NCBI RefSeq assembly: GCF_000621545.1
Contig: NZ_JHYA01000004.1
Location: 124,001-188,000, forward strand
DNA length: 64,000 bases
From: Anaerovibrio lipolyticus LB2005
GTDB taxonomy: Bacteria; Bacillota; Negativicutes; Selenomonadales; Selenomonadaceae
Direction of reading: 5' to 3'
Shown: one piece after another, positions 11,230 through 14,425 of the stretch
Layout of the letters: each line of letters begins with the position of its first letter
How positions within the stretch are numbered: the first letter of the stretch is position 1
Position numbers and translations under genes: made by a program
The notes under the pieces: model-generated
What the model was told of the DNA's origin: nothing
Database searches by the model: none
Seen by the model: the letters and a program-made list of their open reading frames with translations, nothing else

Positions 11230-11727
11230 CTAAACATCATATAGTACAATGTCATTTTCTTTTAATGTTTTCTGTACATCAATAACCCGTTGATTGCTGC
11301 TTCCCCGGAAGCTGAGGGAAATATCGCGCTTCCATTCCTGATATGGGCCATCCACCAGAACATCAAGCTCCTTCAGCAGTTCCACCTGCTGTGGGGTTCC
11401 CTTTAAGAGCTGTTCTATGGTATAGCCGGTGTAACACCAGACATCCAGACCATGCTGATGAATCTTGCGAGCCAAATCAGCCAATGGCGCCGGCTGGCAG
11501 AAGGGTTCGCCTCCACTGAAGGTGACGCCCTGCAGCAGCGGATTATCCAAAATAGTCCCCAGTATATCATCCGTATCTTCCACATGACCTCCGTCAAAAT
11601 CATGGGTCTGGGGATTGTGGCAGCCAATGCAGTTGTGAGGACACCCCTGGGTGAAGATGGTAAAACGGTACCCTTCACCGTCTACAACTGAATCATTGAC
11701 AGTACCGGCAAGCTTAATTGAGGCCAT
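11230..11727 (-). CDS. nrdG: Anaerobic ribonucleotide reductase activating enzyme
   Basis: NrdG is the radical SAM activase that generates the glycyl radical of class III ribonucleotide reductase. The protein has 165 residues, normal for the family. The cluster motif GCPHNCIGCHNPQTHD carries Cys29, Cys33 and Cys36. TFSGGEPFCQP is the SAM-binding GGE motif. It overlaps the upstream small glycyl-radical gene by 14 bases, so translation is coupled. Its expected substrate glycine is on that small protein rather than on the large NrdD chain, which makes the gene order informative. Confidence 0.96.
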   Translation of the reverse strand: MASIKLAGTVNDSVVDGEGYRFTIFTQGCPHNCIGCHNPQTHDFDGGHVEDTDDILGTILDNPLLQGVTFSGGEPFCQPAPLADLARKIHQHGLDVWCYTGYTIEQLLKGTPQQVELLKELDVLVDGPYQEWKRDISLSFRGSSNQRVIDVQKTLKENDIVLYDV

Positions 11728-12019
11728 GCTTTACGCGATCATGCTCCTCGGAACGCTTGGCATTGTTCCAGCGATCAATAGTACCAACCAGATAACCGGT
11801 GATGCGACGGATACGCTCAAACTTTGCAGGCTGTAACACGTAATCAAGGGCTACGGAGCCATCCTCTGCCGGGGAAATGGTGAGGCTGCTGAGATCCTCA
11901 TCGTTTTCCTCCTCCAGCATGTCGATGTAGCTCATGATTTCCTGCTCGCTGACATCATTCAGTCCCTTTACTGTTACATCAATTCCATTTACTACCATTT
12001 TTTTACACTTTCCTTTCAT
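11714..12019 (-). CDS. Stand-alone glycyl radical domain of class III ribonucleotide reductase
   Basis: A 101-residue protein between nrdD and nrdG. Residues 67-98 (FERIRRITGYLVGTIDRW, then NAKRSEEHDRVKH) match the C-terminal glycyl radical loop of NrdD proteins, where RxxGYL carries the radical. The candidate glycine is Gly75. Residues 8-62 form an unrelated acidic N-terminal part that I do not recognise. The neighbouring NrdD chain ends without this loop, so the radical site appears to have been split off. A second start at 11998 (Met8, behind AAAGGAAAG) is possible. The role as a required subunit is inference; the alternative is a spare or repair part, as YfiD is for PFL. Confidence 0.82.
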   Translation of the reverse strand: MKGKCKKMVVNGIDVTVKGLNDVSEQEIMSYIDMLEEENDEDLSSLTISPAEDGSVALDYVLQPAKFERIRRITGYLVGTIDRWNNAKRSEEHDRVKHGLN

Positions 12020-12051
12020 ATAAAATCACACCTAATAATTACACGCGTGTA

Positions 12052-14322
12052 TTACTTGTCATATTGTGGTCTGCGAACAATCCGGCGCATCTTGTGAGCT
12101 GCTTCACTGCGTCCGCACTGAGGGCAAACATCATATATTATACCGTTGTAGCCGCAAACCGGATCCCGGTCAACAGGATGATTTACTGAGCCATAGCCAA
12201 TGCCATTATCGTGCATGCAGCGAATAATGGCTTCAAAGGCCTTGAGATTCTTGGATGGATCACCGTCCATTTCCACATAGGAAATATGGCCGGCATTGGT
12301 GAGAGCATGATATGGACCCTCCAGCTCCAGCTTCTTGGCAGCGGCAATCTTGTGATAAACCGGAACATGGAAGCTGTTGGTGTAATAATCCTTGTCGGTA
12401 ACTCCCGGGATTTCACCGTATTCCTTGCGGTCAAGACGCACAAAGCGGCCACTGAGTCCCTCGGCAGGAGTAGCCAGCAGGGTGAAGTTAAGACCTGTCT
12501 GCTGGGATTTTTCATCCATGCGCTTGCGCATGTGTTCTACTATTTCAAGACCCAGCTGCTGAGCTTCCTCGGATTCACCGTGATGCTTTCCTATAAGGGC
12601 GATAAGTGTCTCTGCCAGACCGATAAAGCCCATGGAGAGAGTACCATGCTTTAATACCTCGGCCACGCTGTCGTCGGTTTTCAGCTTCTCGCTGTCAATC
12701 CATACACCCTGTCCCATGAGGAAAGGATAATTGCGGACTGTCTTGCTGCACTGAATCTTGAAGCGGTGGAGAAGCTGGCGGAATACCAGCTCAATAATGC
12801 TGTCCAGCTCATTGAAGAAAACCTTCTTATTGCCCTTGGCCTTAAGAGCCAGACGAGGCAAATTGATGCTGGTAAAGCTGAGGTTACCGCGCCCACAGGT
12901 CACCTGACGGTTCTTGTCGTGGACATTGCCCATTACTCTGGTACGGCAGCCCATATAGGCCACCTCGAAGTTGTAATCCCCCTCCTTGTAGAACTGGAGA
13001 TTAAATGGGGCATCCAGGAAGGAGAAATTAGGAAACAGCCTCTTGGCAGAGGTGCGGATGGCCTGCTGGAACAAGTCGAAGTTAGGATCGTGCTTGTTGT
13101 AGTTGACCCCTTCCTTAACCTTAAAAATCTGAACCGGGAAGATAGGGGTTTCACCATTGCCCAACCCTGCAGTGGTGGCCTTTAAAAGATTTCTGATAAC
13201 CATGCGGGCCTCAGGGGAAGTGTCAGTACCATAGTTAATGGAGCTGAAAGGCACTTGGGCACCAGCACGGGAATTCATGGTGTTGAGGTTATGGATAAAT
13301 GCCTCCATAGCCTGATAGGTGGCATCCTCAGTGGCATCCACTGCAGTAGCCACTGCGTAATTATGGGCCCTTTCTGTCTGATTTGGAGAAATGGCCTGAT
13401 AATTGTGACTCTGCTGATGATATGGCAGAAAGTCCACCAAATGATGTAGATACTCATCGGTATTACCAAGGCGGATATCCATAGGGATGCAACGCCGGAT
13501 TTCCTTGGACAAGAGCTTTGCATCATTGGAATTCATGCTGAGAACTGCTATAAAGAAAGCAGCCAGAGCCTTGAAATACTCCTTGGCAAAGGTTTTGGCC
13601 ACACCAGGTGCCATGGCATAATCAAAGTTTGGAATAGACTGTCCACCGTGCATTTCATTTTGATTAGCCTGAATGGCAATACAGCCAAGAGCCGCGTAGG
13701 AACGAATGCCGTTTGGCTCCCTCAGATAGCCGTGGCCTGTGGAAAAACCATCCTTAAATAATTTAAGCAGGTCAATCTGGCAGCAGGTCTCGGTGAGCAT
13801 GTAAAAATCCTTGTCATGGATATGAATGTCGCCGTCAATATGGGCAGCGGCAATATCCTTTGGCAGGATGTAGTTATCAATATAATATTTGGATCCCTCG
13901 GAACCATATTTCAGCATGGTTCCCATGGCAGTGTCCGCGTCAATATTGGCGTTTTCCCGCTTTATATCGGCATCGGCTGATTTTTTAAAGGTCAGCTCGT
14001 TATATATATCCATTAGGTTCCCCTGAGCCTCACGAATCTTGGTGTGCTCTGCCCTATAGATAATATATGCCTTGGCGGTGCTGGCAAAATTGTTGCGAAT
14101 CAGTACCTTTTCAACAGTGTCCTGAATAAATTCCACAGTAGGAATATCCTGGGCGGAAATGGCCTCTGTTACCTCGTTGGTGAGGCGTTCCAGTTCCTTT
14201 GCTGTAAAGGTATCATCAATGGATTCCAGATTAGCCTTTCTGATGGCATCTGTAATCTTCTGCGAAATAAATGGGACAATGTCCCCATTGCGTTTTCGTA
14301 TATTCTGTATATAACTTGCCAT
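12052..14322 (-). CDS. nrdD: Anaerobic (class III) ribonucleotide reductase, large chain lacking the glycyl radical loop
   Basis: NrdD reduces ribonucleoside triphosphates to deoxyribonucleotides under anaerobiosis. The chain has 756 residues. An ATP-cone allosteric domain spans about 1-95 (IRKRNGDIVPFISQKITDAI). The barrel includes HIHDKDFYMLTETCCQIDLL, FSSINYGTDTSPE, YMGCRTRVMGN and RGNLSFTSINLP. The C-terminus has VCGYNG and CPQCG (Cys723, 733, 736) and then stops at RRPQYDK. The canonical RxxGYL loop is absent here and is found in the next gene, 32 bases downstream. Two NrdR-like boxes and a promoter lie upstream, so repression by NrdR is expected. No internal frameshift is visible. Confidence 0.94.
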   Translation of the reverse strand: MASYIQNIRKRNGDIVPFISQKITDAIRKANLESIDDTFTAKELERLTNEVTEAISAQDIPTVEFIQDTVEKVLIRNNFASTAKAYIIYRAEHTKIREAQGNLMDIYNELTFKKSADADIKRENANIDADTAMGTMLKYGSEGSKYYIDNYILPKDIAAAHIDGDIHIHDKDFYMLTETCCQIDLLKLFKDGFSTGHGYLREPNGIRSYAALGCIAIQANQNEMHGGQSIPNFDYAMAPGVAKTFAKEYFKALAAFFIAVLSMNSNDAKLLSKEIRRCIPMDIRLGNTDEYLHHLVDFLPYHQQSHNYQAISPNQTERAHNYAVATAVDATEDATYQAMEAFIHNLNTMNSRAGAQVPFSSINYGTDTSPEARMVIRNLLKATTAGLGNGETPIFPVQIFKVKEGVNYNKHDPNFDLFQQAIRTSAKRLFPNFSFLDAPFNLQFYKEGDYNFEVAYMGCRTRVMGNVHDKNRQVTCGRGNLSFTSINLPRLALKAKGNKKVFFNELDSIIELVFRQLLHRFKIQCSKTVRNYPFLMGQGVWIDSEKLKTDDSVAEVLKHGTLSMGFIGLAETLIALIGKHHGESEEAQQLGLEIVEHMRKRMDEKSQQTGLNFTLLATPAEGLSGRFVRLDRKEYGEIPGVTDKDYYTNSFHVPVYHKIAAAKKLELEGPYHALTNAGHISYVEMDGDPSKNLKAFEAIIRCMHDNGIGYGSVNHPVDRDPVCGYNGIIYDVCPQCGRSEAAHKMRRIVRRPQYDK

Positions 14323-14359: not shown

Positions 14360-14425
14360 ATTTTACAATATATAGTATCTAGTGTCAAACTGAAACACTA
14401 CATCTTGTGGTTTACCTTATCCACA
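14360..14425 (-). promoter_or_regulatory. nrdD promoter with two NrdR-like boxes and a DnaA box
   Basis: On the minus strand a -35 TTGACA (14388-14383) and a -10 TAAAAT (14365-14360) are 17 bases apart. Two 16-base sites resemble the NrdR consensus ACACTATATATAGTGT: 14363-14378 over the -10 and 14395-14410 just upstream of the -35, each matching at 12 of 16 positions. Their starts are 32 bases (three helix turns) apart, the usual NrdR arrangement. A perfect DnaA box TTATCCACA lies at 14417-14425. Confidence 0.72.

Follow-up and report, generated by a model that had tools for sequence, protein, structure and literature searches.

The nrdD locus of Anaerovibrio lipolyticus

Within a 64,000-nucleotide stretch of the Anaerovibrio lipolyticus LB2005 genome (contig NZ_JHYA01000004.1, positions 124,001 to 188,000; hereafter the window), a small gene sits between nrdD, which encodes the catalytic chain of a class III ribonucleotide reductase (RNR), and nrdG, which encodes its activase (Table 1). 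In NrdD, the glycine of a C-terminal loop carries the radical installed by NrdG. As a preliminary description of the locus had noted, the 756-residue NrdD of the window lacks this loop: the chain ends in CPQCGRSEAAHKMRRIVRRPQYDK and matches positions 1-540 of the 562 in Pfam NRDD (E = 7.5e-192) and 2-718 of the 746 in NF005497 (1066 bits, cut-off 764). The loop is present on the small chain, whose open reading frame (ORF) matches NRDD alone in Pfam, at positions 533-562 (E = 1.9e-7, exceeding the curated cut-off), so that the two matches tile one family. In NCBIfam, three NrdD models match the small ORF, and only through their final 31-37 positions (E = 2.6e-14, 1.2e-11 and 5.1e-8), far under each model's whole-protein cut-off. 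NrdG scores 152.7 bits against TIGR02491 (cut-off 126.1).

The locus thus carries the NrdD family profile, the barrel, the finger-loop cysteine and an adjoining NrdG that define a class III RNR, whereas the C-terminal glycyl-radical loop expected on the same chain is missing from the large one. We take Cys459 to be the finger-loop thiyl cysteine, a role assigned from T4 NrdD. Because the loop lies on the other chain, the system is filed here as a two-chain variant of class III RNR and not as an ordinary member. A NrdR-box-like site upstream of nrdD is weak, with five matches across the window against 2.8 expected.

Table 1. Coordinates of features at the nrdD locus (window numbering) and of the small protein-NrdG fusion loci
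Feature	Coordinates	Strand	Basis
nrdD, catalytic chain of class III RNR without glycyl-radical loop, 756 aa	12052..14322	-	Pfam NRDD and NF005497
ATP-cone in nrdD product	residues 7-94	-	Pfam ATP-cone, E 4.4e-18
Codon of finger-loop (presumed thiyl) Cys459 in MGCRTR of NrdD	12946..12948	-	
ORF of small glycyl-radical subunit (predicted), 101 aa, stop codon included	11714..12019	-	
Probable coding region of small subunit, 94 aa: N-terminal domain and radical loop	11714..11998	-	relatives' frames, alignment, AlphaFold2 model
Codon (GGT) of predicted radical glycine, Gly75 of ORF, in RRITGYL	11795..11797	-	invariant in 46 rows
nrdG, radical-SAM activase, 165 aa	11230..11727	-	TIGR02491
NrdR-box-like site ACACTACATCTTGTGG upstream of nrdD	14395-14410		
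Small protein-NrdG fusion locus	L243:2352-3236	+	
Small protein-NrdG fusion locus	L244:1925-3034	-	

Sequence, selection and predicted fold of the small protein

The small protein was first described as 101 residues long with an NrdD-type loop; the loop stands, but the length probably does not, the true start probably being Met8, seven codons into the ORF, to give 94 residues. The Met8 start is favoured because the open frames of several relatives begin only one or two codons ahead of the equivalent methionine (L026, L030, L038, L040 and L045), and because a Shine-Dalgarno-like AAAGGAAAG makes up codons 2-4 of the longer ORF; starts of the remaining alignment rows were chosen by script to favour the Met8 position and lend it no independent support. 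From the nrdD stop codon it is 32 bases to the 101-residue start and 53 to that at Met8. The overlap with nrdG (14 bases) and the acidic N-terminal part (14 D/E against one K/R in the first 58 residues) are as previously described.

The alignment of 46 small proteins shows FERIRRITGYL to be invariant, along with another glycine and the residues N, K, E, R, K and H. Comparison with seven close relatives gave 0.009-0.16 non-synonymous and 0.1-2.6 synonymous substitutions per site, with a nearly invariant loop; purifying selection on the small gene is strong, and strongest in the loop, and decay is unlikely. AlphaFold2 modelling of the small protein alone gave an N-terminal domain (pLDDT 86-90 across residues 11-60) that is predicted with fair confidence to be beta-beta-alpha-beta-beta, and a low-confidence loop. 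This domain perhaps serves in docking or in guarding the loop.

Four genomes of the family that includes A. lipolyticus also encode paralogues of the small protein (L234:2146-2499, -; L235:2339-2632, -; L236:2388-2702, +; L237:2165-2563, -) in which the N-terminal domain and F[ED]RIRR are kept and the glycine loop is missing at the end. These are possibly competitors or regulators.

Reductase complement of the genome

In the assembly, which comprises 31 contigs and is rated at 100 for completeness and 1.07 for contamination, NRDD has three matches: the large chain of the window, another large chain at a distance of about 55 kb and a single loop protein. There is one NrdG match, that of the window. 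The possibility raised earlier of a second, full-length nrdD with an intact loop was rejected, as the second NrdD (L104:8823-11087, -, on G000:C4; handles beginning with G and L denote our genomes and loci) ends in ECPHCKRKEIITGHKIVKRPVFE and is loopless too. A search of the same genome for a class I or II reductase (PF02867) gave no match. Since no other reductase was detected, and barring an assembly gap, loopless NrdD with the small protein would be the only de novo route to deoxynucleotides; by its gene content the organism very probably has no reductase but this split one, which is, by elimination, probably essential. The tail type of the second NrdD is the sole type in some other Selenomonadaceae (e.g. 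G023 and G031).

Distribution of loopless NrdD and the small protein

Sixty genomes, including that of A. lipolyticus, made up the sample of relatives, in which NrdD was called loopless where its NRDD match ended at profile position 529-540. Loopless NrdD occurred in 40 of these genomes, every one of which (40/40) also encoded a short loop protein. Intact NrdD was absent from 38 of the 40 (exceptions only G025 and G047), and 33 had no PF02867 match, three of them single-contig chromosomes (G022, G023 and G034). Among the 20 genomes with intact NrdD only, the small protein was found in 12 and absent from 8 (Fisher p = 5e-5 for 40/40 vs 12/20, not corrected for relatedness). Small-protein matches in G038, G046 and G047 fell under the family cut-off but were also found using the protein of the window, and an extra weak partial NRDD match in G056 was left uncounted.

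The survey of the gene trio suggested in the preliminary description recovered the order large-small-nrdG in several genera and in loci of the Desulfovibrio order. The arrangement is kept in relatives, contrary to the loss from them that had been entertained, and the split recurs beyond the family that includes A. lipolyticus. Adjacent large and small genes are out of frame in 11 of 15 pairs and in one frame in the other 4, and in many genomes the two genes lie at different loci, in agreement with the earlier judgement that this is no simple frameshift.

A small-protein profile was run on 299 phylum-sampled genomes, and 26 of them encoded a loop protein in an open frame of fewer than 400 codons, eight of these genomes being from the same family as A. 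lipolyticus. By the NRDD profile, the other 18 hold loopless NrdD only (n = 8; G125, G322, G299, G250, G274, G063, G109 and G182) or intact NrdD (n = 10). Loopless NrdD and the small protein also occur together in Marasmitruncus (G354) and a Desulfovibrio metagenome-assembled genome (MAG; G355), and intact NrdD with the small protein in G352 and G353. These 18 genomes and G352-G355 were picked for having the small protein (G181 by a match to the N-terminal domain only) and therefore provide no test of co-occurrence; the matches listed in the phylum survey with the NRDD profile reach about E 2e-192, and loopless NrdD without a small partner is possible there.

In the order of the Desulfovibrio MAG (61 genomes, 58 with an NRDD match), loopless NrdD and a short loop protein of this kind were found in the same ten genomes, and none of the other 48 NrdD genomes has such a protein (Fisher p = 1.9e-11, relatedness ignored), G401 being cut at a contig end and G413 in pieces among those 48.

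Other loop types were also encountered. G368, one of those 48 genomes, has an extra ORF with two CxxC pairs and another loop type. The loop reads RIVGYYRPV in an ORF of this description that stands alone at L274:1755-2261 (+), in an intact-NrdD genome of the Desulfovibrio order, and is perhaps an independent kind of NrdD spare part. In the far relative G206 (L275:1216-3463, +), which came from the phylum survey with the NRDD profile, loopless NrdD is followed by a short ORF in another frame with the different loop type RVVGYLSPISHWN, which may be another split or a plain frameshift.

Tails and phylogeny of loopless NrdD

The loopless chains end in a variety of tails: RRPQYDK and KRPVFE in the first and second NrdD of A. 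lipolyticus, RRVKKA and similar in L154-L157, PHMPRWE and similar in the Desulfovibrio order, and FERIHRITE in G125, where the chain stops right ahead of the glycine position. By pattern, the finger-loop cysteine motif is kept in 37 of 37 loopless rows.

A first, quick tree of 75 rows (L255 and L257 not entered) placed nine changes of the loopless label, at least five of them forced. L275, L254, L256, L258, L259, L117, L132, L159 and L209 (distant) and L113 (identical to L112) were dropped before a careful tree of 65 rows was built from the NrdD core without the loop region. On the latter the label changes seven times, at least five of these changes being forced by well-supported branches, and a single origin of loop absence was recovered in 0% of 200 bootstrap trees. 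By this reconstruction, the NrdD loop has been lost or regained at least five times. Intact rows L105, L107, L108 and L111 nest among loopless rows, so that regain by recombination is possible, and the direction, loss or regain, is not decidable from change counts.

Two intein-like insertions were seen at one NrdD site: exactly at the finger-loop cysteine (MGC...CRTR) in L233 of a bacterial MAG (G361), and at the same position in Eggerthella phage EL753P1 (L360:647-3505), whose NrdD is also loopless and whose downstream loop-bearing ORF appears interrupted.

Stand-alone small proteins and fusion to NrdG

The small protein coexists with intact NrdD in 24 genomes (12 relatives, ten phylum-sampled genomes, G352 and G353). 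The few kb retrieved around 22 of the small genes, which come from 19 of these genomes, yielded neither nrdD nor nrdG (NrdG cut at E 1e-20). In L154-L157, nrdG adjoins the loopless large gene and the small gene lies outside the fetched stretch. In the genomes inspected by eye, the small protein has a loop (FERIRRITGYLVGT or SPIRRIRRITGYLS) of the type present in an NrdD of the same genome; in G047, which encodes an intact long-form and a loopless short-form NrdD, the small protein is of the short-form type. Lone small genes and matching loop types suggest that the stand-alone part came first, with loop loss following later in several lineages.

In two genomes of one genus (G329 and G305), the small protein and NrdG form one continuous open frame (295 and 370 codons from stop to stop; Table 1), and both also hold intact NrdD with its own NrdG adjoining (L214 and L212). 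This natural fusion provides direct, though not conclusive, support for the small protein being a substrate of NrdG.

Small proteins in virus contigs

A scan of IMG/VR yielded 270 coding stretches, of which the best 80 were kept (L280-L359). Among these 80, with at most 3 kb of flank fetched, the loop was on a long NrdD in 5, a separate NrdD ORF lay in the flank in 14 (some in the order nrdD-small-nrdG) and neither was seen in 61, including L290, which the loop pattern missed and which was placed there since its record has no other NRDD match. Whole records were searched for 36 of the 61, mostly longer contigs (21-252 kb; G423-G458), and all 36 contained the single loop match only and none an NrdG, these records being classed as linear and thus possibly fragments.

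Twenty proteins from 11 virus loci (two small proteins and 18 neighbours) were scanned against PHROGs. The neighbours included terminase and portal (L297), integrase and endolysin (L282), integrase (L287), helicase and processivity factor (L292), ParA and ParB (L284), clamp loader (L300) and virion protein (L315), whilst those scanned from L280, L281, L303 and L306 matched no phage hallmark; the small proteins were recognised only through NrdD families, at their ends. Of 50,697 annotated phage records, 14 matched the protein of the window, one of them across 80% of the query, an argument against the small protein being common in known phages. In G001, the second small gene is on a contig that coincides with an IMG/VR record in extent and gene coordinates.

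A probable class III reductase with a separate radical subunit

Complementary tiling, co-occurrence, gene order, the NrdG fusion, the kept finger-loop cysteine, purifying selection and the absence of any other detected reductase together make it very likely that this is a class III RNR in which a separate and exchangeable small subunit carries the glycyl radical. That the two chains form one enzyme, with NrdG activating the small one, had been proposed at the outset and remains the best reading, its presumed chemistry following from the known biology of NrdD and NrdG. In the small protein, NrdG would abstract a hydrogen atom from Gly75; the C-terminal loop of the same protein would then insert into the barrel of loopless NrdD at the usual place of the fused loop; the glycyl radical would generate a thiyl radical at Cys459, and nucleotide reduction would proceed as in ordinary NrdD. 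In A. lipolyticus, two catalytic chains would be served by one small subunit and one NrdG. With less certainty, the small protein may at first have been an independent spare part of the kind that YfiD provides for pyruvate formate-lyase, here for NrdD; loss of their own loop may later have made several NrdD lineages dependent on it. The radical 'ignition' part looks interchangeable in many anaerobic bacteria and some of their viruses.

Several observations weigh against this interpretation. The draft genome may conceal a gene, and in the Desulfovibrio order G365 combines intact NrdD with a divergent match ending at profile position 483, which was not counted as loopless, whilst the seven loopless rows of that order in the tree form one clade, so that the co-occurrence counts are not independent. 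The second active-site cysteine was matched by a narrow pattern in 20 of 37 loopless rows, with NCCQ in ten more and other cysteine pairs in two, and by no pattern in five (L217, L225, L154, L156 and L157). For the N-terminal domain of the small protein, Foldseek returned no PDB or BFVD match at E <= 0.001, and the best VIA-align Z (5.7, to ToxR-type periplasmic domains) lies under the informative level of the tool; shortened versions in other lineages are without the domain. Structure prediction of the pair, recommended in the preliminary description, was of no help: AlphaFold2 of a read-through chain (L024, 39-row alignment) gave no usable fold (pLDDT 62, pTM 0.42), with large parts, including the catalytic region, at low confidence, and nothing was concluded from that model.

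Alternatively, the small protein could be only a repair part for oxygen-damaged NrdD, with loopless NrdDs taking their radical from elsewhere, such as another tail residue. Its presence beside intact NrdD in 24 genomes, and the 22 small genes whose fetched flanks lack nrdG and nrdD as expected of a stand-alone repair gene, fit this proposal. It is nevertheless very unlikely, given that, in both fully listed samples, each genome with loopless NrdD also had a small loop protein (40/40 and 10/10) and that the tails RRPQYDK, KRPVFE, RRVKKA, HRITE and PHMPRWE share no common residue. A general radical carrier serving several glycyl radical enzymes, and not specifically an NrdD subunit, would account for small genes that lie away from nrdD in many genomes and alone in phages; such a role is hardly probable, as the loop matches only NrdD models and its type, in the genomes inspected by eye, follows an NrdD of the same genome, in G047 the loopless short form and not the intact long one.

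The two chains might also be joined during or after translation, by readthrough, frameshifting or protein trans-splicing, to act as one ordinary NrdD, as the four pairs that share a frame would permit. The 11 pairs out of frame and the many genomes with large and small genes far apart make this extremely improbable, and family scans of both window chains, which included no dedicated intein search, found no intein model. Frameshift, assembly error or gene decay has next to no probability: although the large chain stops at the loop border, in G125 just ahead of the glycine place, and a simple frameshift may explain L275 in the far relative G206, dozens of species share the arrangement, with differing frames, spacings and often loci, purifying selection acts on the small gene, and the genome yielded no other reductase.

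Relation to known systems

The two-chain reductase proposed here shares the catalytic family, ATP-cone, finger-loop cysteine, NrdG and gene neighbourhood with the canonical NrdD/NrdG systems of E. coli, phage T4 and Thermotoga maritima, and differs from them in having the radical loop on another polypeptide. According to passages of PMC8683613, YfiD/GrcA of E. coli and Y06I of phage T4 are the only validated autonomous glycyl radical cofactors, and spare parts for other glycyl radical enzymes are raised there as speculation. As described in the same passages, each is a small stand-alone copy of the C-terminal glycyl-radical part of a large enzyme, is activated in trans by the activase of pyruvate formate-lyase itself and may be phage-borne, to all of which the small NrdD protein can be likened; the N-terminal part of YfiD is disordered there, whereas that of the small protein is predicted to be folded. 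Membership of the GrcA/YfiD family was rejected, since the small protein matches NRDD alone in Pfam (no Gly_radical, PF01228) and only NrdD models in NCBIfam at E values up to 1. Unlike YfiD, it would be the only loop source in the lineage of A. lipolyticus and not a repair part, and it is fused to the activase in two genomes. A gene set apart from its enzyme, as for YfiD, is seen in relatives with intact NrdD, whereas the gene of the window lies between nrdD and nrdG; these stand-alone loci point to a protein that works like GrcA/YfiD without belonging to that family.

Ribonucleotide reductase in two chains is also known from the class II NrdJa/NrdJb of Pseudomonas aeruginosa, in which NrdJb carries domains that are C-terminal in other class II enzymes (passages of PMC9669993); that system has no glycyl radical, and NrdJb is no radical carrier. 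Some phage nrdD genes likewise occupy more than one coding region, being split by introns, homing endonucleases or fragmentation, but in the portions of PMC3653736 consulted these are mobile-element interruptions or splits of unknown cause, and the word glycyl is absent from its main text. A search by title and start of abstract, covering the open full-text literature and leaving subscription papers and preprint servers outside its scope, found no report of a separate glycyl-radical NrdD subunit, and none appears in passages of PMC9669993, PMC4390871, PMC8683613, PMC12288474, PMC3653736, PMC4493059, PMC3019208 and PMC9531940.

We consider it reasonably probable that all of these proteins belong to one subunit family, comprising spare parts for intact NrdDs, an obligate subunit of loopless ones, an activase fusion and a stand-alone phage gene serving anaerobic deoxynucleoside triphosphate (dNTP) synthesis of the host. 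One subunit would then possibly be shared by two catalytic chains, and the phage gene would keep or capture the anaerobic dNTP synthesis of the host during infection. The phage gene would then count as a recurrent one directed at the nucleotide metabolism of the host, known to date chiefly from contigs of uncultivated viruses. Enzymes of this kind could be overlooked by length filters and by family models built on a single chain; a large RNR phylogeny discarded sequences of fewer than 400 residues (passages of PMC9531940). If the two-chain interpretation is correct, an essential radical enzyme has its radical on a subunit apart from the catalytic chain, and activation (small protein and NrdG) is divided from catalysis (NrdD), leaving each step testable alone. 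Ultimately, this would extend the spare-part idea from pyruvate formate-lyase to the synthesis of DNA precursors, with an obligate end state reached repeatedly.

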